IMG/VR virus record: IMGVR_UViG_3300032156_000034
Span: 1-40,276 of that record
Origin: a virus
Strand: one strand, 5' to 3'
Length of the DNA: 40,276 nucleotides
The notes under the pieces are model-generated. The model did not search any database and was not told where the DNA came from. It saw only the letters and a list, made by a program, of their open reading frames with translations. A program made the position numbers and the translations under genes. Shown piece by piece: positions 9,032-40,275 of this stretch. Every line of letters begins with the position of its first letter. The stretch's first letter is position 1.

Positions 9032-9949
9032 CTAATCCTCCTTGTAACTATTAGCGAAGTCCAGCAACTTGGCTTTCATTTCCTGCTGCTTTTCTTCCGC
9101 TTCACTCCAGGCATCGCCATCGATCAATACCTGGACATTGCTTTCAACCAGGTCTGCCAGGTCCTCTGGTTTGACCGCATCCAACTCCCATGACTTGTCG
9201 CCATACTCGGCCACATAGGCATTGAAGCGGCTATCAGTTTCTTTGGCAGGGTTCTCTGGTGGGTTCCACTTCTCCACCTGGTCCATATTCAGGGCCAGGC
9301 GCCGCACATTGATCTGCTCTCCAAACATAAACAACTCCAACCGTTTGGTGATGTCGTCTGTCATGTCGATACCAGATGGGTCATGGTCGCCGAAGTAGAA
9401 TAGGTGGATGTCTTTGCCATTGCGGTATTTTTCAGCCATTCGCTGGCCGGCTTCGTACATGGCGCTGCTGGATGAGTATCCCTTGTTGGCAGTGAAGCCA
9501 ATCCCCAACTTGTTGCACACCGGACCCAGGACACCTGACAAGGCATCCTTCTCCACCATGACTTCGACATGGTTGGTTTGGTTTTCCCACATATCGATCC
9601 TGAACTGCTGGGCAGCAGCCCGCACGATCTGGCCAGGATCACGCCAGAAGTTGGGGATCACCAACTCACGACCACGGTCCTCGATCATATCCCAGTCCAG
9701 CAGGCCGGCCAGGCGGGCATTGCTCACCAGGTCACCCATGCGCTTGTAACTGCGGATGTTGTTCTTGCTGCCGGTGGCCTTATCTTCCCAGCCATCTGGC
9801 AATAAATCCCTGGCCACCAGTTGATAGTACAACTGGCGCAGGGTTAGGGTGTATCCCTGGGCGCGGTACTCATCCAGGATGGTTTCCACCTGGACGATCA
9901 GCGCCTGGCTTTGATCACTAAAACGATGGGCAATAAAGGGTTGCTTCAT
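9032..9949 (-). CDS. Spo11/TopoVI-A-like Toprim protein
   Basis: 305 aa. The N-terminal part has T-L-R-Q-L-Y41-Y42-Q-L-V, like the catalytic tyrosine motif of the Spo11/TopoVI-A 5Y-CAP domain. The C-terminal Toprim part shows E133 in V-E-K-D-A-L, a K-G-Y-S-S turn, and D188-H-D190-P-S-G, matching the acidic triad that binds Mg. This layout is known from phage and actinobacterial hypothetical proteins. DNA strand cleavage or transesterification is plausible but unproven, and no TopoVI-B-like ATPase is encoded. It is the second gene of the early operon, directly after the RHH protein. Confidence 0.68.
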   Translation of the reverse strand: MKQPFIAHRFSDQSQALIVQVETILDEYRAQGYTLTLRQLYYQLVARDLLPDGWEDKATGSKNNIRSYKRMGDLVSNARLAGLLDWDMIEDRGRELVIPNFWRDPGQIVRAAAQQFRIDMWENQTNHVEVMVEKDALSGVLGPVCNKLGIGFTANKGYSSSSAMYEAGQRMAEKYRNGKDIHLFYFGDHDPSGIDMTDDITKRLELFMFGEQINVRRLALNMDQVEKWNPPENPAKETDSRFNAYVAEYGDKSWELDAVKPEDLADLVESNVQVLIDGDAWSEAEEKQQEMKAKLLDFANSYKED

Positions 9950-19193: not shown

Positions 19194-20165
19194 TTATGAG
19201 GCCGCCATCTTGAAGTTGCAGATGCGGGCGATGGAGTAGTTGCTGATATTCAGCAGCCCTACTGCCCAGTCGATGCGGCGGAGGTACTGCGGACCACTCT
19301 CGCTCTCATTGCCATTCAAGGGATCATAAATATCAATCCCCATGCCGGCCAGTTGGATCGCCCGAACGCCATCATCCGTGTCCATGCGGACCACATACAT
19401 GCTGGTGCTATCGTTTCCGGCGTCACCAGGGTCCTCGGTGTTGGTGATGATCTCCGTGGTCTTGTCGGCTTTCAAACCGACATCGATGATGGGCACACCA
19501 GCAAAACTTGGGAACTTCTTTTCAAACATTTCGATGGTGTTATAAACCAGGCCCAGGTCACGGAGCAGGCTGCCAATCTTCCAGTAAGTGGTTTCGTTGC
19601 AGAAGATGTGCGTCGCGCCATCGCAGAACTTGACGGCTTGATGCAATCCATCAACGAAAGTCTTTTCATTGGCTGCACTGGCAAAAATCTTTAGGCTGTC
19701 CGTTGATCCCTGGAGGTTGATGGTCATGCGGGCTGGCATGTTGCTCACCCGCTTTTTCAACCCCTCGAAGGTGTCAGGATCGAGGCCACTGTCACCGTTG
19801 ATGAAGGCGTTATTGAAGGCGAAGGCAACCGCCTTGGCTTTCATTTTCATCTGTGTGATCATGGGTTTCTCGACCTTGGCATTGATCTTCTCGGCAACTT
19901 TGTCAATTTTGACATCGCCGCCCAGGAGGGCCATGCTTTCGACAATATCTTCCACGTTTCCAGAACTCTCGGTGTAACCACCACCGACTTTGCGGAAGCC
20001 CGCACCAGGCAATGTCTGCCAGCGGGAGGCGGATACCTGGAGGCCAGTCACATCGTCAAATGGAATGGCCGCCAGCAGATCGGAATATCGCAGCAGGTCC
20101 TGAATAAAACCCTTCTGGAAGGGCAACTCGCTGGCCTTCGCGATATCTACTAAACCTACGGGCAT
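19194..20165 (-). CDS. Major capsid protein (HK97-type fold)
   Basis: 323 aa, the size of non-cleaved or lightly processed HK97-fold capsids. The segment L-P-G-A-G-F-R-K-V-G-G-G-Y (about 52-64), followed by a G-G-D-V-K-I-D-K-V-A-E-K-I strand-helix and a K-x-A-V-A-F-A-F-N-N-A-F-I-N-G-D helix, is typical of the GP7-like capsid family. The C-terminus has an A-domain-like strand (T-S-M-Y-V-V-R-M-D) and a G-L-L-N-I-S-N-Y-S-I-A-R-I end. The scaffold gene is immediately upstream. The ribosome binding site is AAAGGAG. Confidence 0.85.
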   Translation of the reverse strand: MPVGLVDIAKASELPFQKGFIQDLLRYSDLLAAIPFDDVTGLQVSASRWQTLPGAGFRKVGGGYTESSGNVEDIVESMALLGGDVKIDKVAEKINAKVEKPMITQMKMKAKAVAFAFNNAFINGDSGLDPDTFEGLKKRVSNMPARMTINLQGSTDSLKIFASAANEKTFVDGLHQAVKFCDGATHIFCNETTYWKIGSLLRDLGLVYNTIEMFEKKFPSFAGVPIIDVGLKADKTTEIITNTEDPGDAGNDSTSMYVVRMDTDDGVRAIQLAGMGIDIYDPLNGNESESGPQYLRRIDWAVGLLNISNYSIARICNFKMAAS

Positions 20166-20957: not shown

Positions 20958-23900
20958 CTACCGAATAGACGCTGCAAGCAGCGCCAGGAAGCCCAAAATG
21001 GATCCTCCTGGTTTTCCGTTCTCGATCCATATCTTTTCCAACTCGGCTTGGGCACCTGCTCCCAGGTCTGATCCTGTCAGTGCGTAGTAGGCCACCTGTT
21101 GTTTTAGATTGTCAGAAGCATCGGCCAGGTAGAAATCAGCGGAGTACGCGGGGCTGTTGAAATCAGGCGGATACCAGTTTGCCAGGACCTGTTGTGCAGT
21201 AGCCTGGTTCATCCCAGCCGCTGTTCTGGTGCCATTCAAGATCGCCTGGGCAATGTATTGATCCAGGAAGGGAGCCAACTCTGGATGGTCATTGATCTGC
21301 TGCTGCTTCCAGTCCCAGTATTGCTTCAACTGCGGGAACTGCGCACGGTAAGCAGTGCGGCCCTCCACCGGCTGGGCGTAATAACCATCATTGATCGCCA
21401 TGATGTTGGGGAACATGGCCTCGCGATCAGCGTAAAACTTGTTCAAAGCCTTGTCGATGGCCGGCGGCAATCCACGCAGCGGCGTCACCGGAGCAGCCAT
21501 GGCCGCCTGGGTTTCAGGTACAGTCGGCAGGTTGGCAGCACCCAGCATCCTGGCCCAGTTTGTCAGGGTGGATGTATCTATGTTGTCGTAATTGCGAGTG
21601 GTCTTGTCAAGAAAAGCCTCCTGGAATAGGTCGCCCAGTTGTGGCCTGACTTCCCTTCTATTTGCCTGGTCCAGTGCCATGTAGCGATCCCACACCTGGC
21701 CGACCAGGTACTGGCGCATACGCACATCCGGCGGCTGACCCTTGGCCAGGTAGGCGCTGTATTCAGGATGCTTGTCGAAGAAGGCATTGACCGCATCGGT
21801 ATCGCCGCGATCCTTGGCAGCCCAGGCATCATCCCACTCGCCTTTCAGGCCACGGTATTCTAACTCGCCGGTGGGTAGCAGGTTACCACCAAAGAAACTT
21901 GGCAGCAGGGCTGCAGCACCCTGGACCACATTGCCATGCGCAGCAGCGTAGAGAGCCATGGCACCTGGAACCTTGGCAGCCATTTCCATATTGACACGTT
22001 GCCTGGCAGCCTCGAACACCGATCCGTTCCTCTGGATCATGGCCGTGATCCCTTGGTCGTAGGTGATCTCCCCATCCGCCACCATGTTGGCCAGTTGCCG
22101 ATCAATATAATAGTCGCCGTATTCGCCGTATTGCGACAGGCCGGTGGCTTTCCTGGCCAGGTTCTCTGGTGCAGCCAGCAGGCCGATGATGTCACCAATG
22201 CCCTGCATCGAGGTGCCGGCAGTGGCAGCCTTGTAAGCATTGGCTGTCCTGGTGATCGGCAGCGGGCTGATCTTGTTTGCCTGGCCGGTCAGTGCATAGT
22301 AGGGAGCCGATAGATACCAGGCTGGTCCCATGATCACATTCATGAAGTCAATGGGGTTGCTTATTTCTGCCTGGCGCCTGGTCTTTGCTTCTGCCATAGC
22401 CTTGGTGTAGGTTGGACCCTGGCCTTGCTGGGCAGCAGCCAGTTGTTCCTGGGTGATCGTGCCGGCATCCGCCCATTCCCGCAGCACCCGCTGGAGTTCA
22501 TAACCAATGCTGACCTGATCCTGCTGCATCTGATCAAACGGTTGTTCCAGGGCGGCAAACGGGAAGATGTTACGCAGCGGGTCCATGTACACAGCACCAC
22601 CCATCCAGGCCGGCAGGAAGGGCATTGGGATCGCAAACTTCTTGCGCAATCGTTCAGGGATATTCCGCTGGTAGGTGTTCTGCATTGATCGCAGCCTGGC
22701 ATAGTTGGCAAACCAGGTGGGTCGATCCAGGGCACGCAGCGCCCAGTTCATCATGGTCCGGCCATACCAAAACTGGTAGGGATAGACCACATCCAGGTAC
22801 TTATCGAAGCCGTACCTGCGGTTGTAGTTGAGCATGGCAAAGTCACGCTGGCTTTCAGCATGGCGCAGGGCAGCGATCTTGGCCGTGGCCAGGTTACCCT
22901 TGACGGTTCCTTCCAGGTAGTTATTCAACTGCTTGGTTGTGCCGGCATCCAGATTACCCATGTTGAAGCCACCTTCTTTGGCTTGGGTCATTGCCAGGTT
23001 CTTCATGCCGGTCAGCAATGGCCTGACATGATCGGTCCAGCCTTCCTGCATGATCTGTTCATCAGGTCGATCCTGGGCCACCTGGTCATAGCCACCCACC
23101 GGCGCATTGGGATCGTAGGGCGGCTGGTCCGCCTTGTAATCGTTTGCACTCTCGCCGATCTGGATACCCTTGTATTTTTCCAACTCCTTGCCCATGCCAT
23201 AATTAGTATCGGCGTCAATGCCTGTGTTTTGCTTGAAACTCGAACCATCCTGGAAGATGGCATCCATGATCAGATCACTCTTGAGGGCCTGGCGCAGCAA
23301 GGGCATCACATTCGGATCGTTGGGTACATTGATCAGGATGATCCCATTGACGCCGGTTTTCTTTGCAAATATGCGTAGGATCGCGGCAGATCGCAGGCCA
23401 ACCCTTTCAGGGGTCAGTGATACATTCATGCCCGCCATATCAGCCACGGTGATCTCCATGACGGACCGCACTGAACCACCTGACAATCCAACGACCATGA
23501 CCTTATTAGGATCAGCACCCATGTCAATACCAAACCTGGCTGCGCCTTCGGGGCTGCTGATCGCCCTTCCAAGCAGCGGGTTATGTACCATCCGTTCTCC
23601 CGCATTGTGCAGGTTATAAGGCGTGGGCACATCTTTCAGTTCGTGCGTTTCAACACGGAGATATTTATCCAGGATTGAATATTCCTCATGGTCAATTACC
23701 ACATGGCCTTTGAACAAAGGACCTAATATATTCGCTATCCCCGCTGTCATTCCACGGTCCTGCGGGCTTGGATTACTATGACCACTGGGATGGTTGTGAA
23801 GATACCACACGCCATCGGCGTCCAGGTCCCAGGCCACTTGCCTTAAGATTTCTGGTTCCTTATAAATACCTTCGGGCAAGGCTGCACCAAACCCAGGCAT

Positions 23901-26900
23901 CCTGCTGGTGGTGGCCATTTCGCCAACAACCAGGTCGCCCTTGGTATAGATCACCCGCCCCACTTCGTACAGCGGGTTGCGACATATTTGTGCAATGGTG
24001 GCCAGTTCCTTGTAGTCGTTGAAGCGCAGCCCAACCAAGGGCACATATCCCTGATCGTGAAATTTCTTGGATATTCCCAAGGCCAGGATGTCACCCTTCT
24101 TTCCAATCAAGTGCAGGGCTTCCACGGCCTTGACCCTCAAATCGAGTTCAGCCTGGGTATAGGTTGTGCCGGCTTCCTTGCCATAGACACCATCGGTATC
24201 TGCCATCTTTTTGAACAACGGTCCCAGGTCCTCGGTGGTGGTTACCTTCCTGGCGCCGATCTCCGGCCCCAAGCCAGGCATAGTCTGCTGGATAGGTCCT
24301 GCTGGCTTCGGGTTGAATATCTGCTCATCACCAGGCGTGACCGTCTTTGAAAACAGTGGCGTGTCCTGGGCACCAAACATGGCCATCTGTCCATCCTTTG
24401 CCAGGCCCTGGGAAATGGGCTGCCGGTTGGCCATGATCTCCAGGTAGCCGGCGGTGTCTGGATTGATGCTGACTTTCATCACGCTGTTCTTCACGGACCT
24501 GTAGGCACCCACCAGCCAACTTTCGTACACGCCATAATCACCACCTGGCGTATCCTTGCCGGTCTGGAAGTAGTCTGCGAAGCCCTTGGCTGCGTCCGCT
24601 GCGCTGATCCCCTGCCGGCTGGCCGGCATGGTGCGCCTGAAAATATCCCAGGTGTTCCGCACCAGGGTGGTCAGATCGGTGTGATTGAAAGCATCGATCA
24701 GGGCACGGCCATCGGCCATCAGGTCGTAGGTTGGGCGCTGATCGAAAAGGTTGTTGCCGTACAGGCGCTGCGCTTCACCCAACTCCGGCGTGATCTTGAT
24801 GGCATGTATGGTATCGGTTGTATATTTTGTCCTCATTTCCCCACCGATGATTTCTGCCATCCGGCTGCTTCCGTTCAACTCCATCACCATGCTAAAGCGC
24901 TGCGTTTCATCACCGTGTTCCAGTAGGTTCACGATGGTTTCATACTGCTTTTGCATGATAGCAGCCCCCTCAATATCAACGCGCGTGCTTGCCGTCCTCG
25001 TCATTTCCTGGATCACCGGTCCAGCCTTTTCAATAAACTCACTGGCGGTCAGGTCCGGTCCGTGGTAGTCCATGTTGGTTGTGAAAGTATCCGTGCGCAC
25101 TTCAATATCTTCTGGCACGACCCCATACTTCTTGGCGATCTTGGCCAGGTCGCTTCTCATCAGTTCGTCATACAGCGTCATGTGAAACTTGCTGCCGATC
25201 TCCAGGTCAGTGCCGGTAAACTCGCCTTCGTCCGCAGTGGCGTATTGGCTCTCGACCTTGCTCGTCATTTCTTCGCCAATATATTCAGACAGTTCGCCGG
25301 CTTGAACCTCCTTACGATCCACAATTACATCGCCTTCAAGATCGTACACGGTCAGGTAATAAGCCTCTGCCTTTTCTTTTCCCAGGGATGGGGTGGCGTT
25401 CTCCCAGTAGATGCGGCTGATCCGTTTGGTCAGTGAGTTCACATCGGATTGCTGCATCCCAGTGGTCCAGCCCAGGTAGTCGTAGCCATGATCAGCAGCG
25501 TATTTCAACATCCGCTTCATCACCATTTCATGCCAGTTGTTCACAAAGGGTGGCTTGATATATCCGCCCTCCGTGTTGCTCCTGGCCGCCGACTTCGCCA
25601 AAGTGAACCAGTCCTCCAGGTCGCGTCCCGATTTTTCCGCCCGCCGGACTTCCCTGGCATAGCGCTTGGACAAGTCGTTGTGCCTGGTGATCACAGCCTT
25701 TTCTTCGGGTGCAACTTCAACCCTGGTGCCATCGGCATTAATTATTACATCGACCACATCGTAAGCCGAATAGGCGGTGCTGGAACCCTTGGTGTGTACG
25801 ATCCTGCGGCTTCCTATTTTTTGATCGCCGTGAAATACGCCTTTCGATGTAAACGAGTAATTATTTTTTACATTTTCATCGGCTACTTGTTTGATTACCG
25901 CGCTCAACTCGTGCAACCTTTCTTCATAGGCATCGAAGTCAAAGTAGGGGTAATCAGGCAGCGGCTTATTCTCCGGCAGTTCCGTTGCCCAGCCGGTATG
26001 CAGACCCTTCTCGATCCAGTCGGTCTGGATTTCCTGGACCATGGCGACCTTGCCACTGGTCTTATCTTCAACGTGATCCGTCATGCGGGCGTGTGCCAGA
26101 ACATCCGGCTCCTCCCAGTGGCCACTGATAAATCCCCTGTTTCTTTCCGCCGTATTCAAAATGTTTTTTATTCTTATGTAATCTGTGTCTAATTTTTCAA
26201 ACCTGCGCCTGGCACTCTTTGCTTCCAGTCGAAGCGGGTTGCTATCGATCATCGCCAGGTTGTCGTCATACTGCTTGTTCAGATCCGCCAGTTCATCCTG
26301 CAGTGATTGTGCCACGCCATAATCATCGCCAGGCATCCGGCGGTTGGCATCTATTTCCCATTTCTTGTTGTCGATCAGGCTCAATAAATCCCATCGCTTG
26401 CCATCCAGGTCATATATCTTGACATTCAACTCCTCGACTTCCTTGGCCGCAGCCTGGGACATATCATTGATCTTCTCTGCAGCAGCGGTCAGACCAGGAT
26501 CGACTGGCCTGGTTTCGGGATGCCAGACAAGTTCCAGTTCGGTGTAGTTGGTGCCACCATGGACGGCAATATAATCCCTCCACTTGGGTTCTGGCCCAGG
26601 TTCAAACTCTGGCGTAAAGCCGCGCATCAAGTTGTCGCCAAACGCTTTCGCCTCATCAAGGCTCGAAAATACCATGCTATCGGCAGGAAGTATTGATGAT
26701 CGCACAAAAAACTTATCAACCCACTCCCCGCCTATTTTGTTTCTTATGTTCCGTATCTCCACCGTTGGTGTGCCAAACACGCGTTCTTTGGTTCCTGTGA
26801 CAGGTCCAGGATATTCAACATTTTCTGGCACATAAGCATGGGCATAAAACACTTTATTTTCCCGATCAATCCCGCCCCAACTCACATCCTCCCACTCTAT

Positions 26901-29900
26901 TCTCATATCCTTGTAGGGGGTTGGCACTGTTTGCTTCCTGCTTGGCCGCCAGACTTCCTCGATCTGCACCGGCGTCATGGCTGTAAGCGCTTCTTCTCGG
27001 GTGATCTTCTGGCCCTGCTCCAGGCCATCCATCCATTCCTGCAGGCCAGTGTAGATCAGTTCATCCTTTTTGATGCCGGCTGTCACCAGCATACCCTGCA
27101 GTTGTTCGGCGGTCATGACCTTCTGGCTGATTGCCTGGATGGATCGCTGCAACTTGCTGTACCATGGTTGTCCTGGAGCCAGGCGGTATTCATTGCCCCC
27201 ATCTTTCAGGATGTTGGCCACACCCTTGCCCCAGGTTCCCTGGTTCCACACTGACTTGATCTGATCCTTGTTGAACAGGATGTAGTGGATAGTGTCCGGC
27301 ATGTCCTGGTACATGGTAGTGAAATAGTCCACCGGCTTCAATACCGCGCCATCATAGCCCAGGTTCTTGATCACTTCCTGGACAAACTGCCGATCCAGGA
27401 TGGCCCATTCATTGTTCCATTCGCCATCTATGCCAGATAACTCTGGCATGTACATCATGGCCTTGATCACATCCTTGACCAGTGGTGGCTGGTCCATCCA
27501 GTCTGGAAATCGCTCCTCGATAGAGGCCATTACAACATCAGCCAATGTGTGGGATGGTCGCTGCCCTATCCTGTTATCCCTTTCGCTTTCAAACGCATAT
27601 CTTTTATTGTTTACGCCAAGTTCGTCAGCAGCCTGCTTCACCGCTTCATGTAGTTTCAACCAGGTGCCAGTGGCTGCGTCATAATCCATTTCGCCATCTG
27701 CACCCATGGGAATATCCAGGGTAAAGCGCTCGTTGCCGGTGCCGGTCATATCCAGGGGAGTTTCCATCTTGGGGATCACTGGCATGACCACACCCTGGTT
27801 GGTGCGTCCGATCAGGGTGCCGGCAAACATCTGCGCTTCATCATCGCCGTAACGGGTGGCCATATAGTTCAACGCATTGCCATTAAACTCGCCCTCGCCG
27901 TTCTTCCACACTTCAATATCTGCCTCGATCTCAATCTCTGACTTGCCAGTAAACCTGGCAATCGCAGGGATATGTTCCTCGGGATCAGTGTTCATCAGGT
28001 TGTCCAGGGCGCCTTCAAGTTTTATGAGCCGGTCCTGGGCTTGTGGATGGGCGTAATGCACATTGGCATCCTCTGGATTGGAGGTTAGGTAATAAGCCGC
28101 ACCCAGTTGGCTATCCACAGATGATGGCCTAAACTCCTCGAAGCCAGCCAGCGCACCATGGTAGCCGATCACTGTGTTGCCTGCCTTGTCGATCAGTTTA
28201 TTGCCATGGTTCCATTCCTGGAAAGCACCGTTGCCGATGTAAGTGCCCTTGGGTTCGGAATAGAAGTTTGCCGGCCTGTGCGCAAATAACTTGAAACCCA
28301 TCAACCGGAGATCAGCAACTTTCATATCACCCCTGTACAGGTGATGAGAGAAATCTCGAATAAAACCTATGTCTTGGTCGGTTGGAAAATCAATACGGAT
28401 GGCATACAGTTCATTGCCCTTGACATCGTGATAATGCAGCCACATCCCAGTAAGTTCTTTGTTATAACCTGTTCTAGGACCTCCCTCCAAAGCACGGCGC
28501 AGCGCATGTATCTGGCTGGAGGATGGCACCGTGTTGTATATGTCCAGTTGCAAGTTCTTGCCAGTGCTGTCGTTGTAATATCTCACGGTGATCGCACCGG
28601 TGTTGCTGTCGAAATAGGTTTCTGGCGTAAGGGTGAGATCGTCCGCAATATCGGCGGGTGGGAACGCCTGGGAAATTTCCGAATATCGCCTGCCGCTTCC
28701 TTTATCCCTAAAGTCCAGTATGCTCCCATCTTCCAGGATATATCCTTCGGCTCTTGGTTCTCTTGTCGTGCCAAAAAGCCGGATCGCCTCCTCCACAAAA
28801 TCTGGCCGGCTGGCCGTGCCATCCAGATCGACTGGTGGCTTGTCAGCGTGCTGGGCGCGTACATCAGCCAGGGCGCCATCATCTTTCAGGCTGTTGTAAT
28901 AATGCAGATCGCCCACATCATCGTAGGCTGCTTTTGGTTCACCCAGCATCCCACGGTGCGCGCTAAACTTGCGATTAGCCAGGTGTTCCATGTCGGTCCG
29001 GCTGCCAACCCCACCGTACACGGAGGCAGTAAACTCACGCAGCGCTTTCAGGTCCTCCGTGGTGGGATTGTTGATCGAAATTGAGTAAAGAGAGTCACCA
29101 TAACCGCTATTGATGTCCACCACCATGAGTGATGGAACGGTGTGATCAAAGATCGCCTCATTCAGCGCTCTTATCTGATCCGTGCTTGGCACGGTGCCAT
29201 ACAGATCGAGTTGCAAAACATCATCACTGAACCAGGACATGCGGATTGCGCCAGTGTTGCTACCCATTTGTGACATGGGGGTTCCGGTATCAGCAAACGC
29301 ATTGCCTCTCTCTGTTTCTGGTAACACAAAGCCAATCTCTCGGTGATCCAATGCCCTGGTGCCCGCTGGTCCGCCTTCTTTCTTTCCGCTAAAGTCCAGC
29401 ATCCTTCCATCGTCCAGGATATAGCCGGCTTCCCTTGGATCGTCAGTGGTTCCAAAATAATCCACGGCTGCCTCGTTCCATTCGCCGTGATATTCCTGAT
29501 TGGCAAAAGCATCACGCGCCGCGGTCAGCCTGTTATCATCCCATACATTGACCTTGACTTCCACATCTGGATCGGTGTAGTAGGATAGGTTGCTTTCCTT
29601 GATCAGTTTAGGACCGTTCTGGCGCCAGAACTCATCCGGCGTGCTGTTGTTCCACTTTGCCCACTCGTCAGCCACACTATCATTGGCTGCCAGGATCGCA
29701 TCCGCATGATCCGGCGTCATACCGTGTTCCTGCACCATGATCTCTTTCATGGTCTGCTTGGTCAGGATGATGTCGGCATGTTTCTCTGTGTTATAGGTGG
29801 CGCGCTGGCTTTCGATCCGCAGGCCATCGGCCTGGGAACCAGTGATACGCCGTGACAAATCTTCCAGCAGCGCATTGTAAGCCTCTGCCACTGGTGCCAT

Positions 29901-32900
29901 CTTCTCTGCAGCCATCATCCCATCAGGGAAACTATTGGCCCAGGCTTCTGTTTCCTGGAGCAGCCCCTGGAGTTGGGCGGCCTTGTTCTCTGGCAGCGCC
30001 GTGTTGTTGATCTTCTCCATGGTGGCCCGCAGGCTGGCCATCTTGGCCAGGTCGATCTCCGGCCTGTACAGGTGCAGCGTCAGGTTCTGCTGCATGGCAT
30101 CCAGTAGTTCAGGGGTGATCCCCTCACCGGACATAACCAGGGTGCCGGCGATGTCTGCCAGGTCTTTCTCCAGCCGTGTCTTTGGCTCCTGGCCATTGCC
30201 CAATTTCTCCAGGGCAGCCATGACTTTTTCACGATCTGCTTTCAGATCACCATACCAATCAGGATAACTGGATGGAATACCACGCCATTCGGTTCGTTCT
30301 TCTCCACCTGGCCCAAGTGTTGTAAAACTCTCACGCCGGCCAGGTTCGCCGATCTCCACCAGGGCACGCATGTCTTTATAAATGCCAGTGTAAGTATCGG
30401 CCAGGTCTTTTGGCCAGGATGATGGCGGCAACCTGCCGGCTTCTCCCCTGGCCCTGGTCCATTCGTCTATCGGCATATTGAGTTGATCGATTATTCTTGC
30501 AGACGCTGGAGGCTGTCCTTCACCTTTTGGTAGTTCGGGTCGGACGGCCACCATACCCTGACCACTTCGCCGCCTTGCCATGGCTTCGGCGTCAGCGAGT
30601 TCAGTGACACCGCTTGGTCGTTGCCCTTTGCCAGTAATGGCATGGGCTGATTGCTTTTGGGCATTGATTTCTTGGTAGGCGCTGTCGAAGCCGTCACCTG
30701 GGTACTTCCCTTGATTTTCTGCAGCAGCCGTGTAAATATCGAAGCCTTGGAAGTAGTGCGTTTCGCCATTGGCATCCCTCACTTCTACGATCACCTCGGA
30801 TACATCCTTCGCGAGGCGCTTCAAGAGATTTTTCATCTCCTGGGGTTTTATGTTTCCGTACATCACAAACTCATCACCGCCGGCCCTGGCAATGCTCACG
30901 CCTTCCGGTAGTGCCTGGGCCTGCTCCACCCATAATTTCAACAGCAGATCGCCGGCAGCATGGGAGAAGTTATCGTTGATCCATCCCAGTCCCTGGACAT
31001 CGAACACACCAACGGTCTTGGCTGCAGCAATATCCTGGAACACATACCCCTTGATCGGAATACCCAGCATGGGGTCATTCTTCATGGCGGCCAGGCTCTT
31101 ATCCTGGGCAGCCACCTGGGCACGGAGATCGGCCAGTTCTGCGTATCGACCCTTGGGATTGGGTCCAAACTGCGTGCCATCGATCATCGTCTGTGCCTGG
31201 GTGGGCGTGAGTTTCGCAATGAAGTCAGCATCGTAACCCAACTCATCCAGGGCAGATCGCATCCCTTCGGTCATGACCGTTGCCGGACCAGGCTTATTGC
31301 TGGGGGTATAGCCAGCCAGGATACGCTGTGCTTCCTCGGATCGCTCGGCCAGGTTGCCCGTGGTGAACACATCACTGCCGGCTTCTCTGTGCTTGTTCAG
31401 CACATTGATCAGTGCCCTGTTCATCGGTTCGCCGGACTTATTGACCAGCGGGATACCCTTCTGCGCAGCCAGGTCCATGATTGGTTTCACCAGGTTGGTT
31501 GCCTCGGCATTGGTAGCCTGGACCTGCTTCTGGACTTCGGGATCGAACAGGCCGGCACCCTTGATCGCTTCCCAGGCTTGATCTGGCGTTATGGCATTGA
31601 TCTGCTCGGTTGTAAATCCCAGAGATCGCAAATCGCCTTCCATTTTCTTGGTAACCATGACCGGCACACGCGCTGCGCCAGCGGGTTGCGGAGCAGCAGG
31701 CGGAGGTGTAACAGGTTCGCCAGGCGTTACATTTGGTGTAACAAGTGTTACATTTGGTGTAACGGGTGGCACCCTGGGTGCGGTTGGTCCAGTGGGTTCT
31801 ACTGGAGGCAGGCCGGCTGCAGTACGCTGGACAGCCTGGGCGCCTTCCTCTTTCAGGCGCTGCAACTCCACGATCATGGGATACAACTCATCGCTTTTGA
31901 ACTTGGTCCAGGCAGCATGGCGATCATCCCAGGGGATTGTTTCCAGGTTCTGCCGGAAGTATTGTATTCGCTTCCACATTTCATCCCGCATGGCAATGAC
32001 CTTATCGTACTCGGTCTTGGCCACCGCACTGGCAGCATCGCCCAAGGTGCCCTTCACCATCTTGGCAATGGCAGTGCTGATCTTCTGCTGCTGTTTGACA
32101 GCCGCCTCGTAGGTTTCCTGGAACTTCTTGCTGATCGCCGCTTTCATTTCGTCCCTGGCTGCGTATCTACCAGGCGCATCCCAGTCACCCTTGTACTTAT
32201 CCCAGTAGGCAGCAGCCAACTCGGCTCGATACTTGTAGGCATCGTTCCAGAGTTTATCGTGCGCAGCCAGGCCGGCCAGGAACTGATCACTATCCATGCC
32301 CCTGATCCGCAGGCCCTCTATAATCCCAGCGTATTGGTTCAGCCGGTTGCCATTGATCCGATCCCATTCCCTGCCGCTGGTTCGGTAAATCTCCTCGACC
32401 ATGAGCCGGCGCATTTCCATGGGTAACTGGTCCATGGCTTCAAAGCCGGCGCCAAACATTTCATAGTGATCGATCCAGCGATCTGTGTAAGACATTTCGA
32501 TATTGGAGATCAGCGCGGTTATCTCTGCCGGCTGCATCACGATCCGGTTGCGCATCTGTTCCGCACTCACCTTGGCGCGCTGGCCTGCCATCAGGTCCAT
32601 TGCATCCTGGGCTTTCTTCTCTGCAGCAGCAAAGGCGGCATGGATTTTGCTTTCCGTCAGCGGTCCTTCGGTCCTGAAACCTGCGTCCAGTTCATCCAGC
32701 ACACCCAACTGATCCAGCATGGATAATGCCGTGTCGCCATCGATCCCCATGGCGCGGGCTGCATCCTGGACCAGGCTGCGCGCCTGGACCTGCACCTGCT
32801 GGCTGGACAGGCTGGTTCTGATCTCGTCCAGGTTCATCCCGCCCTGGATCGCACGGTACACCAGTTCGGTCCGTTCAGGACCCAATGCGGTGACCAGTTC

Positions 32901-35708
32901 AGGCGGCAACGGGTCGATGCTTCGCCCCACCTGCCATAACCAGCCCATGGTCCGCTTCATGTCGATGATAAAAGCGTTCTTGCTTTCGATCCGTTCTGCT
33001 GCACCGGATAACCTGGAGAAGATACCGACCTTGTTATTGATCTTGCCCAGGGTGTCATATACCCTGCGCATCATGCCAGTAGTTCCCCAACGCACATCCG
33101 CCGATTTGCGGGCAGCGTCATTGATCCTGGCATCACCGATCATGCCAATGCCTTCATTCAGGCGGGCAGGCGTGATCCCAAAGCGATCCAGGAAGATATT
33201 GGCCTGGCGGGCGGTCATGTAACCGAAGTTGCCAGTGACTATCCTGGTGAAGATGTTGTTGGTTTCGTTATTGATCAGGTACATCGGGTTGAAACCCAGC
33301 AGCACCAGGGTCTGCGCCCGCTTGGCAATGTTGGCCAGGCGGAACACAGGGCTTTCCTTCTCCACGCCAAAGTAGTTCACCGCCCAGTCGGCATAGTGTT
33401 CTTTCAGTGCCCCTACGATCATGGCCTTCAACTGGCTGGGGTGCCACGGTACATCGCCATCGTAGAATACCTTAACCAAGCCGGCCAGGTCCTCTGCTTT
33501 GAGCATCCCGCTGTCAATCGCCTGGATCAGTGACCGGCTCTCTGGTGTTGCTTTACCAGTCGCTTCCAGTTCAGCAGCCCGATGCCTGATTGTTTTCAGG
33601 TCCAGGTCAGCATCTGCCCTGGCACCCATGTCGTCCAGGACCTTGCCTGGTTCCTCGCCCAGGATCGCCGCGATCCGCAGCAGAGTATTCCTGTTATCGT
33701 CTGCCATGTGATACAGGCCATACAGTGCTTCGATCCTGTCCTTCACGCCTTTCAATGCCGGCAGGAAGGTGTACCATTCGGGGCTGTTGGTGAGTTTGGT
33801 ATTGAGTTCTTTCAGCATTTCATAGTCGCCATCAGAAATGCCGTTCAGATATTTCCTCATCCCATCCACATCGTCACCAAACAACCACATCATGGCTGCC
33901 AGGTTATCTTCCATGATCCCCTGACCCATGACCGCCTTGCTCTCTGGCGTCAGGCCAAAGAAGTTCTTTATCTTGCCGATCAGGTCCGTCCTGGTGTTGG
34001 CGGGCGTCCACCATTTCAGCCTGCCTTCCTGGGTCAGACCAGCCAGGTTGCGCTCCAGTGGGGTAAGCGCCTTGACATCGTACTCACCGGATAACACCAG
34101 TGCTTTGAGCCTATTGATCGTGGATACAAATCCGGTAGCCTGGAATAAGTTTTGAACATGGCCCAGCAGACCACGGCTGGTCATGTAAGGACCTTCGGTG
34201 GCTTTCACCAGGAGTTCGCTGCCAGTAAGATGGCCAATGCCTCTCATGATCTTGCGCTCACCCCAGGGCAGCGCTTGCAACGGATCTGAAATTATCTGCT
34301 GCAGCATCCCCCTGGCTGTACCAGTCAAACCAAACTTGTTGATCGTGTCCAGTTGCACATCCACTGGGTCCTCGCCGGCCATGATCCGGCGCCTGGCTTC
34401 GGTCAGTGCCAGTACACCGTTCTCTTGCATCATCGGCTTGGCTGATCCCATCACCCATACTTCACCAGCATTGGCGATCTCGCCTCTTTCCCTGGCGTCC
34501 CATAAAACCTTTAGGATGTGATCGGGCCGTATGTCAAAACCGTTTGTTTTGAAATCATCTATGATCGTGGCAGCCATTGGGATCAGGTTGATGAAACTTG
34601 GAAAATATACGCTGCCTTCTTCTGCTGCAATACCGGCCTGGTATGACGCTTTCAGATTGGTCAGCACCTCGGTTACTGATCCATACTTTTCAGGCTCTTT
34701 GGCACCATAAACTAACTGCGGAAGGAAGCCAAGTATCTGTTCCACAACCTGGCTGGGGAACATCATGCCTTGCTGGACGATGGATGCGCCCTGTGCCAGT
34801 GGTTTATATTTGCTGGTAGTCGCCCATCCAGATACTGCACCAATGATCAATGGCAATAAGAAGCCGGAGATCGCGCCTGGGATCGCACCAACACCAGCCC
34901 CCGCCAGTAATCCCGCTCCTGCACCAGTGGCAGCACCGGCTAATGCCATCGGTAATGAACTAGCCACACCCTGGGCAATCGGTTGGCTCATGATATTGAA
35001 TACCATGTGCTGCCATTCTGGCAACTTGGTCCAGTCGAAATTGGTGTCCGCCCTCATGGCTTCCTGTATCTCGCGGGGATATTTCCTGATGTCAAAAGTT
35101 TTAGAAGTCAGGATCGCCCTTCTCTGCATGTCCGGTAGTGTGTACCAATCAAAGCCTGGTTGGCTTTTCAGGTTCTCGGCAACTTGGTCAGGATTGGCAT
35201 AGCGCGCATCATTCGGCCACAAGAAGGCATTGGGTGGTGGTTCCATCGCAGCCAGGTAAGCATTGCCAGGATCATCAGCCGGCAGCCATTTCCACTCATC
35301 GGTTGGCTTGTTTCCGTTGCGATACTTGAACCAATCATAAGCAGCCTTGACCTTCTTAACATCCAGCCAGGCCGGCGGCGTCCAGCCCTTGGGTGCAGCC
35401 TGGATCACAGAATACATGCGCGCCACGCGATAAGGGTCCTGCCAGAAGGTTGGCACATAGCCCATCTTTTGGGTGGCCAGTTGTGAAATCGTTTTCAGAC
35501 TACCAGGGCGCCATCCGCGTTGGGTTGCAACATTGTTAAATACCTCATACCCGCGATAGAACCTGTCGTAATCACCTGTTGGTAGGTAATTATCTGATCC
35601 CCGTAATTGATCACCAGTGATCGCTTCGTTCTTGATCGTGCTTTTCAGATCGCTCCCTGGTTCCTTGTCAGGATCAGGTCCTTCGATGGGTATGTTGGGC
35701 ATTACCAT
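20958..35708 (-). CDS. Giant polyvalent virion-type protein, 4,916 aa (GGDEF, ART-like, pseudo-zincin, JAMM)
   Basis: One unbroken frame covers 37% of the genome. In order: an N-terminal part with a Gly/Ala-rich hydrophobic segment (about 248-290), helical regions (L-G-F-N-P-M-Y-L-I-N-N near 805), and a proline/threonine linker (about 1303-1340). The GGDEF domain (about 1545-1700) has D1570, N1578, D1587 and G-G-D-E-F at 1610-1614. A domain duplicated in tandem follows (from about 2080 and 2307; both F-G-T-T-x-x-x-R, G-Y-I-L-D/E-D-G, L-D-F), then an ART-like domain (Y-H-G 2516-2518 to about 2820). A phage polyvalent module has H-W-x-E-P and E-I-Q-T-D-W near 3197 and W-H-E-M near 3392. A degenerate zincin lies near 3678 and a RadC-like JAMM domain at H3971-x-H3973, D3984. 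The C-terminus (Y-P-Y-Q-F-W-Y-G-R near 4310) resembles LPD38-type regions. Its place between portal and scaffold fits an ejected internal virion protein. The start has AAAGGTG. Confidence 0.85.
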   Translation of the reverse strand: MVMPNIPIEGPDPDKEPGSDLKSTIKNEAITGDQLRGSDNYLPTGDYDRFYRGYEVFNNVATQRGWRPGSLKTISQLATQKMGYVPTFWQDPYRVARMYSVIQAAPKGWTPPAWLDVKKVKAAYDWFKYRNGNKPTDEWKWLPADDPGNAYLAAMEPPPNAFLWPNDARYANPDQVAENLKSQPGFDWYTLPDMQRRAILTSKTFDIRKYPREIQEAMRADTNFDWTKLPEWQHMVFNIMSQPIAQGVASSLPMALAGAATGAGAGLLAGAGVGAIPGAISGFLLPLIIGAVSGWATTSKYKPLAQGASIVQQGMMFPSQVVEQILGFLPQLVYGAKEPEKYGSVTEVLTNLKASYQAGIAAEEGSVYFPSFINLIPMAATIIDDFKTNGFDIRPDHILKVLWDARERGEIANAGEVWVMGSAKPMMQENGVLALTEARRRIMAGEDPVDVQLDTINKFGLTGTARGMLQQIISDPLQALPWGERKIMRGIGHLTGSELLVKATEGPYMTSRGLLGHVQNLFQATGFVSTINRLKALVLSGEYDVKALTPLERNLAGLTQEGRLKWWTPANTRTDLIGKIKNFFGLTPESKAVMGQGIMEDNLAAMMWLFGDDVDGMRKYLNGISDGDYEMLKELNTKLTNSPEWYTFLPALKGVKDRIEALYGLYHMADDNRNTLLRIAAILGEEPGKVLDDMGARADADLDLKTIRHRAAELEATGKATPESRSLIQAIDSGMLKAEDLAGLVKVFYDGDVPWHPSQLKAMIVGALKEHYADWAVNYFGVEKESPVFRLANIAKRAQTLVLLGFNPMYLINNETNNIFTRIVTGNFGYMTARQANIFLDRFGITPARLNEGIGMIGDARINDAARKSADVRWGTTGMMRRVYDTLGKINNKVGIFSRLSGAAERIESKNAFIIDMKRTMGWLWQVGRSIDPLPPELVTALGPERTELVYRAIQGGMNLDEIRTSLSSQQVQVQARSLVQDAARAMGIDGDTALSMLDQLGVLDELDAGFRTEGPLTESKIHAAFAAAEKKAQDAMDLMAGQRAKVSAEQMRNRIVMQPAEITALISNIEMSYTDRWIDHYEMFGAGFEAMDQLPMEMRRLMVEEIYRTSGREWDRINGNRLNQYAGIIEGLRIRGMDSDQFLAGLAAHDKLWNDAYKYRAELAAAYWDKYKGDWDAPGRYAARDEMKAAISKKFQETYEAAVKQQQKISTAIAKMVKGTLGDAASAVAKTEYDKVIAMRDEMWKRIQYFRQNLETIPWDDRHAAWTKFKSDELYPMIVELQRLKEEGAQAVQRTAAGLPPVEPTGPTAPRVPPVTPNVTLVTPNVTPGEPVTPPPAAPQPAGAARVPVMVTKKMEGDLRSLGFTTEQINAITPDQAWEAIKGAGLFDPEVQKQVQATNAEATNLVKPIMDLAAQKGIPLVNKSGEPMNRALINVLNKHREAGSDVFTTGNLAERSEEAQRILAGYTPSNKPGPATVMTEGMRSALDELGYDADFIAKLTPTQAQTMIDGTQFGPNPKGRYAELADLRAQVAAQDKSLAAMKNDPMLGIPIKGYVFQDIAAAKTVGVFDVQGLGWINDNFSHAAGDLLLKLWVEQAQALPEGVSIARAGGDEFVMYGNIKPQEMKNLLKRLAKDVSEVIVEVRDANGETHYFQGFDIYTAAAENQGKYPGDGFDSAYQEINAQKQSAHAITGKGQRPSGVTELADAEAMARRRSGQGMVAVRPELPKGEGQPPASARIIDQLNMPIDEWTRARGEAGRLPPSSWPKDLADTYTGIYKDMRALVEIGEPGRRESFTTLGPGGEERTEWRGIPSSYPDWYGDLKADREKVMAALEKLGNGQEPKTRLEKDLADIAGTLVMSGEGITPELLDAMQQNLTLHLYRPEIDLAKMASLRATMEKINNTALPENKAAQLQGLLQETEAWANSFPDGMMAAEKMAPVAEAYNALLEDLSRRITGSQADGLRIESQRATYNTEKHADIILTKQTMKEIMVQEHGMTPDHADAILAANDSVADEWAKWNNSTPDEFWRQNGPKLIKESNLSYYTDPDVEVKVNVWDDNRLTAARDAFANQEYHGEWNEAAVDYFGTTDDPREAGYILDDGRMLDFSGKKEGGPAGTRALDHREIGFVLPETERGNAFADTGTPMSQMGSNTGAIRMSWFSDDVLQLDLYGTVPSTDQIRALNEAIFDHTVPSLMVVDINSGYGDSLYSISINNPTTEDLKALREFTASVYGGVGSRTDMEHLANRKFSAHRGMLGEPKAAYDDVGDLHYYNSLKDDGALADVRAQHADKPPVDLDGTASRPDFVEEAIRLFGTTREPRAEGYILEDGSILDFRDKGSGRRYSEISQAFPPADIADDLTLTPETYFDSNTGAITVRYYNDSTGKNLQLDIYNTVPSSSQIHALRRALEGGPRTGYNKELTGMWLHYHDVKGNELYAIRIDFPTDQDIGFIRDFSHHLYRGDMKVADLRLMGFKLFAHRPANFYSEPKGTYIGNGAFQEWNHGNKLIDKAGNTVIGYHGALAGFEEFRPSSVDSQLGAAYYLTSNPEDANVHYAHPQAQDRLIKLEGALDNLMNTDPEEHIPAIARFTGKSEIEIEADIEVWKNGEGEFNGNALNYMATRYGDDEAQMFAGTLIGRTNQGVVMPVIPKMETPLDMTGTGNERFTLDIPMGADGEMDYDAATGTWLKLHEAVKQAADELGVNNKRYAFESERDNRIGQRPSHTLADVVMASIEERFPDWMDQPPLVKDVIKAMMYMPELSGIDGEWNNEWAILDRQFVQEVIKNLGYDGAVLKPVDYFTTMYQDMPDTIHYILFNKDQIKSVWNQGTWGKGVANILKDGGNEYRLAPGQPWYSKLQRSIQAISQKVMTAEQLQGMLVTAGIKKDELIYTGLQEWMDGLEQGQKITREEALTAMTPVQIEEVWRPSRKQTVPTPYKDMRIEWEDVSWGGIDRENKVFYAHAYVPENVEYPGPVTGTKERVFGTPTVEIRNIRNKIGGEWVDKFFVRSSILPADSMVFSSLDEAKAFGDNLMRGFTPEFEPGPEPKWRDYIAVHGGTNYTELELVWHPETRPVDPGLTAAAEKINDMSQAAAKEVEELNVKIYDLDGKRWDLLSLIDNKKWEIDANRRMPGDDYGVAQSLQDELADLNKQYDDNLAMIDSNPLRLEAKSARRRFEKLDTDYIRIKNILNTAERNRGFISGHWEEPDVLAHARMTDHVEDKTSGKVAMVQEIQTDWIEKGLHTGWATELPENKPLPDYPYFDFDAYEERLHELSAVIKQVADENVKNNYSFTSKGVFHGDQKIGSRRIVHTKGSSTAYSAYDVVDVIINADGTRVEVAPEEKAVITRHNDLSKRYAREVRRAEKSGRDLEDWFTLAKSAARSNTEGGYIKPPFVNNWHEMVMKRMLKYAADHGYDYLGWTTGMQQSDVNSLTKRISRIYWENATPSLGKEKAEAYYLTVYDLEGDVIVDRKEVQAGELSEYIGEEMTSKVESQYATADEGEFTGTDLEIGSKFHMTLYDELMRSDLAKIAKKYGVVPEDIEVRTDTFTTNMDYHGPDLTASEFIEKAGPVIQEMTRTASTRVDIEGAAIMQKQYETIVNLLEHGDETQRFSMVMELNGSSRMAEIIGGEMRTKYTTDTIHAIKITPELGEAQRLYGNNLFDQRPTYDLMADGRALIDAFNHTDLTTLVRNTWDIFRRTMPASRQGISAADAAKGFADYFQTGKDTPGGDYGVYESWLVGAYRSVKNSVMKVSINPDTAGYLEIMANRQPISQGLAKDGQMAMFGAQDTPLFSKTVTPGDEQIFNPKPAGPIQQTMPGLGPEIGARKVTTTEDLGPLFKKMADTDGVYGKEAGTTYTQAELDLRVKAVEALHLIGKKGDILALGISKKFHDQGYVPLVGLRFNDYKELATIAQICRNPLYEVGRVIYTKGDLVVGEMATTSRMPGFGAALPEGIYKEPEILRQVAWDLDADGVWYLHNHPSGHSNPSPQDRGMTAGIANILGPLFKGHVVIDHEEYSILDKYLRVETHELKDVPTPYNLHNAGERMVHNPLLGRAISSPEGAARFGIDMGADPNKVMVVGLSGGSVRSVMEITVADMAGMNVSLTPERVGLRSAAILRIFAKKTGVNGIILINVPNDPNVMPLLRQALKSDLIMDAIFQDGSSFKQNTGIDADTNYGMGKELEKYKGIQIGESANDYKADQPPYDPNAPVGGYDQVAQDRPDEQIMQEGWTDHVRPLLTGMKNLAMTQAKEGGFNMGNLDAGTTKQLNNYLEGTVKGNLATAKIAALRHAESQRDFAMLNYNRRYGFDKYLDVVYPYQFWYGRTMMNWALRALDRPTWFANYARLRSMQNTYQRNIPERLRKKFAIPMPFLPAWMGGAVYMDPLRNIFPFAALEQPFDQMQQDQVSIGYELQRVLREWADAGTITQEQLAAAQQGQGPTYTKAMAEAKTRRQAEISNPIDFMNVIMGPAWYLSAPYYALTGQANKISPLPITRTANAYKAATAGTSMQGIGDIIGLLAAPENLARKATGLSQYGEYGDYYIDRQLANMVADGEITYDQGITAMIQRNGSVFEAARQRVNMEMAAKVPGAMALYAAAHGNVVQGAAALLPSFFGGNLLPTGELEYRGLKGEWDDAWAAKDRGDTDAVNAFFDKHPEYSAYLAKGQPPDVRMRQYLVGQVWDRYMALDQANRREVRPQLGDLFQEAFLDKTTRNYDNIDTSTLTNWARMLGAANLPTVPETQAAMAAPVTPLRGLPPAIDKALNKFYADREAMFPNIMAINDGYYAQPVEGRTAYRAQFPQLKQYWDWKQQQINDHPELAPFLDQYIAQAILNGTRTAAGMNQATAQQVLANWYPPDFNSPAYSADFYLADASDNLKQQVAYYALTGSDLGAGAQAELEKIWIENGKPGGSILGFLALLAASIR

Positions 35709-38841: not shown

Positions 38842-40275
38842 TTATGCGTGTTTCATTCCTTTCCACCGATCTGGTTCCTTTGGTTTCGGCAGCGGTGGGA
38901 TCATACTTTCACTCACCTGGTCCGTGCAATCATACCGCAGGCAATCAGCCAGGTGATCCTCGGCCTTGGTATCCACATCCTCTGGATTAGTTAGATCGCT
39001 GGGTAGTTCTGGAAAGGTGCGGATAAAATTGGTACACCAGGGGGCGACCAGTAACCCAGGTTCTCCATCCGGCAGATCGGACAGTATCCGGCGGACCTTG
39101 CGCCAGCCATTGATCCTGTCATTGTCAGCCTTGGTCAGGATCACGCCCTTGGCCTTGTATTCATCAGCCGTGGAGGTGACCGTGGGATTGCCCTCGCGAT
39201 CATCTTTGCTGTTCTTCTTTGACCACATCGCAGGATCAGCCCAGGTGATGACGATGGCCTGGTTCCCAGTCATGTCGTTGATCTTCTGCGCCTGCTGGCT
39301 ATCGGTCAGGTAGGTATCGTAAGCCTCTTTCATAATGATCCGCCGGCCAGTGTCAGGGTCTTTTGGTATCCACAGGCAGCCCCATGGTTTACTGTAACCA
39401 TAGTCAGTCGCCCGCCGCCAGGTCCAGGTGTAGGGAATGTCGAGCCGGCGATCAGACAGTTCCAGCACATGCCGATCATAGTTCCAGTTGGGGAAGGCCA
39501 TGCCCTGGAAAGCATCCCAGTCAGCGTCACGCCAGGCTTTCCGCAGCGGACCGGTCAGGTTGTTCAGGTAGCGGATGTAGGCATCATCCAGGAAGGGGTT
39601 TTCTTCCCAACTGGCAGGGAAGAAGCGGCTGGTTGTTTCGTTACCCATGCGCCATGGGATCACCAGCCGGCGCTTGAACCAGGAAACTCCGATGCCATCA
39701 GGGTTGGTGGTGTAGTACATCCTCGCCCGCCATCCCTGCTTGGTGGTTCGGCAACTACCCTGGATCGCGTCGCGCCTTTTCTCGCTGATCTGCGCTGCTT
39801 CCTCGATGGCAATGATGTCGTATTCAATGCCCAGGTACTTGTCGATGTCCCTCTCATCCTTGAACCCACCCACCAGGATACGGCTGCCATTCGGGAAGTC
39901 GATCCTATTGGATGCAAATACATGCTCTGTGCTGTGCAACACCTTCCTGGTCAGGTCCTCCAGGCTCTCCGATGCAGACTTCATCACCTTGCGCAGCCAT
40001 AATACTTTCAGCCCAGGGAAACGCTGGCAATCATCCAGGCCGATCTGCGCCAGGGCTGTGTGGCTCTTGGCTGATCCCCTGGTTCCACCCAGTCCGATCT
40101 CATCCGGTCCACCTGGCAGGTCAGGCAGCCGGCAGGCAGCATGAAAGGTAAGCCGTTCCGGTAAGGGAATGTACTCGCCTTTGCCAAAGTTCTCAACCTG
40201 CGACCATGGGCAGCCGGCGTCAAGCGCCAGTCGCAGGCTTGCTTCTCTTACTCTTGCGGGGCTTGGGTATCTCAT
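38842..40275 (-). CDS. terL: Terminase large subunit
   Basis: 477 aa, full length. ATPase: Walker A G63-G-T-R-G-S-A-K70-S71, Walker B Y-D-I-I-A-I-E158-E159, and a coupling motif Y-Y-T-T-N-P (187-192). Nuclease (RNase H-like): D291 in T-D-Y-G-Y-S-K-P-W-G, D347 in T-W-A-D-P-A, and D444 in E-D-H-L-A-D. All catalytic residues are present. It pumps DNA into the prohead through the portal and cuts it. The start codon lies 56 bp inside terS across the map junction, with no good Shine-Dalgarno, so coupling is likely. Codon 43 differs between the two terminal copies (Thr or Ala). Confidence 0.93.
   Translation of the reverse strand: MRYPSPARVREASLRLALDAGCPWSQVENFGKGEYIPLPERLTFHAACRLPDLPGGPDEIGLGGTRGSAKSHTALAQIGLDDCQRFPGLKVLWLRKVMKSASESLEDLTRKVLHSTEHVFASNRIDFPNGSRILVGGFKDERDIDKYLGIEYDIIAIEEAAQISEKRRDAIQGSCRTTKQGWRARMYYTTNPDGIGVSWFKRRLVIPWRMGNETTSRFFPASWEENPFLDDAYIRYLNNLTGPLRKAWRDADWDAFQGMAFPNWNYDRHVLELSDRRLDIPYTWTWRRATDYGYSKPWGCLWIPKDPDTGRRIIMKEAYDTYLTDSQQAQKINDMTGNQAIVITWADPAMWSKKNSKDDREGNPTVTSTADEYKAKGVILTKADNDRINGWRKVRRILSDLPDGEPGLLVAPWCTNFIRTFPELPSDLTNPEDVDTKAEDHLADCLRYDCTDQVSESMIPPLPKPKEPDRWKGMKHA

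Follow-up and report, generated by a model that had tools for sequence, protein, structure and literature searches.

Does the short sequence GGDEF within a giant phage protein mark a genuine nucleotidyl-cyclase domain and, if so, is that domain likely to be active? We addressed this question in the IMG/VR virus record IMGVR_UViG_3300032156_000034, a stretch of 40,276 nt (the whole of which is called the window here), where a single open reading frame (ORF) encodes a protein of 4,916 residues. We found that residues 1515-1690 of this protein are a true GGDEF domain with the cyclase/palm fold. The reading that we rank first, tentatively, is a guanosine triphosphate (GTP)-using cyclase domain delivered from the virus head, closely followed by a degenerate nucleotide-binding domain. 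The cyclase reading is supported by the fold, the homology, the metal and guanine ligands, the absence of an RxxD site, the position within a cargo insert and the membership in a phage-type clade. The features on which the question turns are the following:

20958..35708, minus strand: giant polyvalent-type phage protein, 4,916-residue ORF (ORF call), placed between the terminase large subunit (TerL) and portal-position genes and the scaffold-position and major capsid genes
30639..31166, minus strand: GGDEF domain with the preceding helix, residues 1515-1690 (AlphaFold, structural alignment to PleD, PF00990)
30867..30881, minus strand: GGDEF signature, residues 1610-1614 (motif; GDE in 42/42 relatives, 20 of them found with a GDEF seed)

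The pentapeptide occurs only once in the whole protein and alone would be weak evidence, but several independent comparisons concur over about 100-170 residues. PF00990 was matched in the window search with 25.4 bits (E 2.5e-7); the excised domain scored 25.7 bits, above the cut-off of 23.8, and only 20 bits were obtained when the full 4,916-residue protein was scored. A phmmer search with the single sequence against PDB sequences found the Thermotoga maritima diguanylate cyclase 4urs (E 3e-6), and a profile of 23 phage domains matched 48 PDB sequences, the majority of which are named diguanylate cyclases or GGDEF proteins. The AlphaFold model, built with 23 aligned phage domains, has a predicted local distance difference test (pLDDT) score of 91.2. 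In structural comparison this predicted fold matched DgcR (Z 17.2), and model residues 1-176 could be aligned to residues 263-446 of PleD with GTP-alpha-S (Z 16.3). That the GGDEF pentapeptide arose by chance in a structural protein, without any functional module, is refuted by the agreement of profile, single-sequence and structural matches, and we give it practically no weight. An earlier note, made from the sequence of the window, had placed the signature at residues 1610-1614, a metal-type D1570, and N1578 and D1587 at offsets of +8 and +17 from it, and had described WIND and AGD blocks and S-H (S1582-H1583) instead of the usual G-H. All of these residues were recovered in the ORF translation; the RxxD inhibitory site is indeed missing, with no RxxD at -9/-6, and the cyclase/palm fold that the note had supposed is the one predicted by AlphaFold.

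Next, we compared the active site with that of PleD, in which D327 and E370 bind the metals, N335 and D344 the guanine, and K442 and R446 the phosphates. For PleD K332, one description is that of a transition-state stabiliser (PMC12943098) and another that of a phosphate contact through the main chain (PMC7288161). The corresponding positions in the window domain are:

30999..31001, minus strand: D1570, metal ligand, equivalent to PleD D327 (40/40 relatives)
30975..30977, minus strand: N1578, guanine ligand, equivalent to PleD N335 (18/18 relatives from the scan without this residue in its seed)
30948..30950, minus strand: D1587, guanine ligand, equivalent to PleD D344 (37/40 relatives)
30984..30986, minus strand: G1575, a departure, replacing a conserved Lys equivalent to PleD K332 (Lys in 39/40 relatives)
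30663..30665, minus strand: N1682, a departure, at the conserved phosphate-binding Lys column equivalent to PleD K442 (aligned by sequence, 41/42 relatives have Lys here; the register may be off by one helical turn)

The earlier description of the active-site residues as intact holds for the metal ligands D1570 and D1612 (equivalent to D327 and E370), the guanine ligands N1578 and D1587, and the GGDEF signature, all of which are retained; it fails for the K332 and K442 equivalents, which are Gly and Asn, and for R446, of which no equivalent is seen. The K442 and R446 equivalents are N1682 and Q1686 by sequence and Q1686 and A1690 by structural alignment with VIA-align, with the register uncertain; both basic residues are missing in either register, and K1685 lies close by. 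Because two family-invariant basic residues, concerned with triphosphate binding and transition-state stabilisation, are replaced, the activity of the window copy is doubtful.

These replacements bring a degenerate GGDEF domain into consideration, which we regard as a serious possibility and rank a close second. Such a domain would have kept the fold and the metal and guanine pocket and lost turnover; it might sense or regulate for the polyprotein by binding a guanine nucleotide, GTP or another, comparable to the use made of the domain in FimX, or it might simply be a decaying module. The loss of two lysines that 39 of 40 and 41 of 42 relatives keep argues for it, and so does the long branch of the window domain in the tree described below. 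Furthermore, there are 25 columns that at least 20 of 22 relatives conserve; the window domain keeps 17 of them, and seven of the eight losses lie at residue 1661 or later, in the C-terminal part, where the phosphate-binding residues of PleD sit. Degenerate GGDEF domains often lack the signature and the metal and guanine residues, but here all of these survive despite an overall identity of only about 21% to the relatives.

The relatives were collected in two IMG/VR scans, the first with the seed L[KG]WINDN and the second with the seed YHISGDEF. Since the seeds fix their own residues (W, I, N, D and N, thus including N335, in the first; GDEF in the second), each residue was judged on the scan that does not force it. 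Evaluated this way, the D327 equivalent is present in 18/18 and 22/22 relatives, the N335 equivalent in 18/18 (40/40 overall), the D344 equivalent in 17/18 and 20/22, and GDE in 22/22. Lys at the K332 position was observed in 17/18 relatives, and in 22/22 from the scan whose seed also allowed G. The RxxD site is missing from all phage rows that we examined and was found in most bacterial rows. A tree that included 46 bacterial cyclases has the 24 phage-type rows and the window together on the same side of a branch whose Shimodaira-Hasegawa-like approximate likelihood ratio test (SH-aLRT) value is 98; the bacterial rows were all recovered via LKWINDN and so do not sample cyclases at random. No other branch in the tree is as long as the end branch of the window, at 2.7 changes per column, and its position within the phage side is unsure because of that length. 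By sequence comparison we assign the GGDEF domain of the giant protein to a phage-type clade that lacks RxxD and resides mostly in giant proteins: related domains were found mostly in giant ORFs, the exceptions including some short genes that stand alone (L021, L029, L165 and Yuavirus), and some of the GGDEF-bearing giant relatives also carry inorganic pyrophosphatase (InPase), ART-PolyVal, RadC, ddrB-ParB, LPD1, LPD5 or LPD38. Two fecal scaffolds named 'Bacteriophage sp.' (L004 and L005) resemble ordinary bacterial diguanylate cyclase genes; their presence in the phage collection is probably contamination, and they were kept solely as bacterial references in one alignment.

The guanine-specificity Asp, equivalent to PleD D344, varies among the phage-type domains, being Thr in L012/L015 and Asn in L032 and L178, which is a possible change of base choice judging from these residues. 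This variation bears on a further explanation, in which the window domain is an active enzyme with a product other than cyclic diguanylate (c-di-GMP), namely another cyclic or linear dinucleotide serving as a decoy or agonist toward the cyclic oligonucleotide-based antiphage signalling system (CBASS), Panoptes or type III CRISPR. In favor of this explanation are the variable Asp, the palm fold, which is common to CRISPR polymerases and mCpol (PMC12657218), and the suggestion by Iyer et al. that host responses based on nucleotides could be interfered with (PMC5512222). In the window copy, on the other hand, the GTP-selective D1587 and N1578 are kept, and the giant protein gave no match to a PADLOC defence family. 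Hypr GGDEF proteins, which make cyclic GMP-AMP (cGAMP), typically have Ser in place of the D344 equivalent, and D1587 is Asp. We consider another product quite unlikely. The idea that the enzyme floods CBASS, also put forward in the earlier note, is unsupported for the same reasons: no defence-linked family turned up in the giant protein, and the guanine ligands that it keeps suggest GTP as the substrate of the putative cyclase. An InPase could clear pyrophosphate as a partner of such a cyclase, and the two domains share a protein in L016/L017, L022, L033 and L043. This candidate was rejected, as InPase and GGDEF occur in one ORF at only 2 of 80 InPase loci, which indicates no special coupling; InPase was not detected in the window.

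In order to place the domain within its protein, we compared the 4,916-residue sequence with a 2,156-residue protein found at the equivalent genome position in MW202608, a podovirus from Manatee Spring. The shared framework segments and the domains between them are:

32976..33446, minus strand: framework segment common to the MW202608 protein, residues 755-911 (29.7% identity, E 2.4e-10)
31314..31499, minus strand: weak framework match, residues 1404-1465, the last before the cargo insert (35.8% identity, E 0.002)
28047..28190, minus strand: ART-PolyVal-like start, residues 2507-2554, cargo (PF18760, 27.2-27.8 bits, under the cut-off of 31.2)
25122..26144, minus strand: unnamed domain, residues 3189-3529 (BLASTP to L016, E 9.7e-22)
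23691..23840, minus strand: RadC/JAB-like domain with HNHPSG motif, residues 3957-4006, cargo (PF04002, 24.7-29.7 bits, over the cut-off of 22.1)
21264..23057, minus strand: C-terminal framework segment common to MW202608, residues 4218-4815 (32.4% identity, E 1.9e-84)

The stretch from residue 1465 to residue 4218 spans about 2,750 residues in the window protein and 209 in MW202608, a cargo surplus of about 2,550. This insert contains the GGDEF domain, a duplicated domain, the ART-PolyVal-like start, a domain common to L016 and L025 and the RadC/JAB-like domain; none of GGDEF, ART and RadC has a match in the MW202608 protein. The giant protein thus seems to combine a conserved framework with exchangeable cargo. 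At least two disparate enzymatic domains lie on the one polypeptide, since GGDEF and RadC score over their cut-offs (ART-PolyVal has E 5e-6 but stays under its own). The gene is situated among virion and packaging genes, with TerL and the portal-position gene upstream and the scaffold-position and capsid genes downstream (phrog matches), and the MW202608 counterpart is likewise placed. From this setting the 4,916-residue protein is probably packed in the virus head.

On the cyclase reading, the GGDEF-family nucleotidyl-cyclase domain would be one cargo module of a giant polyvalent protein encoded in the head gene cluster, which may be packaged and then ejected together with the DNA. Within the host, two GGDEF domains would pair, either because each virion carries several copies or once they have been freed from the polyprotein. 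The paired domains could then make c-di-GMP from two GTP, with no inhibition by the product, and host behaviour controlled by c-di-GMP would be pushed at the start of infection. Several observations weigh against this reading. The window copy has K332 changed to G and K442 to N, and no equivalent of R446 was seen by sequence or structural alignment; no dimerisation domain was recognised. Its end branch is exceptionally long, and no close IMG/VR relatives were found by the domain, the portal-position protein or the capsid protein. Packaging and delivery, moreover, are deduced from gene position and the precedent of polyvalent proteins. A broader proposal is that a widespread, phage-specific and feedback-insensitive clade of GGDEF cyclases, delivered by giant head proteins, resets the cyclic-dinucleotide signalling of the host within minutes after infection, with the window copy as a divergent member with replaced phosphate-binding lysines and perhaps a changed substrate; this proposal we hold to be rather improbable.

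The fusion of GGDEF to polyvalent proteins and the idea of signalling interference are already published. Iyer et al. 2017 (PMC5512222) described GGDEF domains in phage polyvalent proteins; among their examples is a prophage protein in which GGDEF is joined by ART, methyltransferase and helicase domains. They suggested that the nucleotide responses of the host are interfered with or that rival elements are the target. The Acetonema longum prophage protein WP_004096050.1 (PMC5512222) is a giant multidomain protein that combines GGDEF and ART with unrelated enzymatic domains and is predicted to enter the host together with the DNA. In contrast to these polyvalent proteins, no zincin motif HExxH was found in the window protein by a motif scan, and its GGDEF copy is divergent. 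PleD (2v0n), DgcR (6zxb) and WspR share with the window domain the fold, the metal and guanine ligands, the GGDEF hairpin and the leading helix, whereas the window domain has no RxxD inhibitory site and no REC, PAS or GAF sensor, carries the two lysine replacements and lies inside a 4,916-residue phage protein. YuA gp44, MP1412_43 and LK3/CN1 (Yuavirus and Bordetella siphoviruses) also encode GGDEF without RxxD, and these stand-alone proteins fall on the polyvalent side of the tree via their IMG/VR kin L021 and L029. Their GGDEF is, in contrast, a short separate gene (~156 residues) that adjoins a KlcA-like anti-restriction gene and keeps LKWIND and SGDEF. LK3 lysogens form more biofilm, with no gene knockout tying the effect to the GGDEF gene (PMC8471281). 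Bacillus phage G gp350 (254 residues) and the SP-15 diguanylate cyclase (183 residues) are phage-encoded with the same fold, but separate from any giant protein. In the literature searched we found no biochemical study of a phage-type GGDEF domain, and a phrase search on phage-encoded diguanylate cyclases returned no papers. Our analysis contributes the RxxD-less clade, recovered with both seeds, the comparison of the cargo insert, and the replacement of two nearly invariant lysines in the window copy. If delivered phage-type GGDEF domains are active, injected phage proteins would directly target the control that c-di-GMP exerts over motility, adhesion and biofilm; relatives with the catalytic residues retained and the feedback site missing are more suitable for testing this than the window copy.

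Further observations concern the rest of the giant protein and its surroundings. The unnamed domain at residues 3189-3529, which has an EIQTDW/EVQSDW motif, also occurs in two GGDEF-bearing giant phage proteins (L016, residues 2296-2620; L025, residues 1661-1835), and a RadC/JAB-like domain was found within a phage polyvalent protein of L020 (residues 2681-2794). Residues 2079-2252 (28953-29474) and 2306-2478 (28275-28793) are tandem copies of one domain, with an alignment score of 230, compared to at most 55 after shuffling; a Pfam search found no family over most of it. The sole strongly hydrophobic stretch in a 19-residue scan is the glycine-rich segment of residues 267-297 in the N-terminal part (about 34818-34910), which could be a membrane or channel segment. 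The genes on either side of the giant ORF include:

38842..40275, minus strand: TerL, context (phrog_3717, E 2.3e-14)
19194..20165, minus strand: major capsid protein, context (phrog_212, E 3.8e-50)

The portal-position protein had no match among phage records. Farther away, positions 9032-9949 strongly match the DNA topoisomerase family phrog_6247 (E 3.9e-109).
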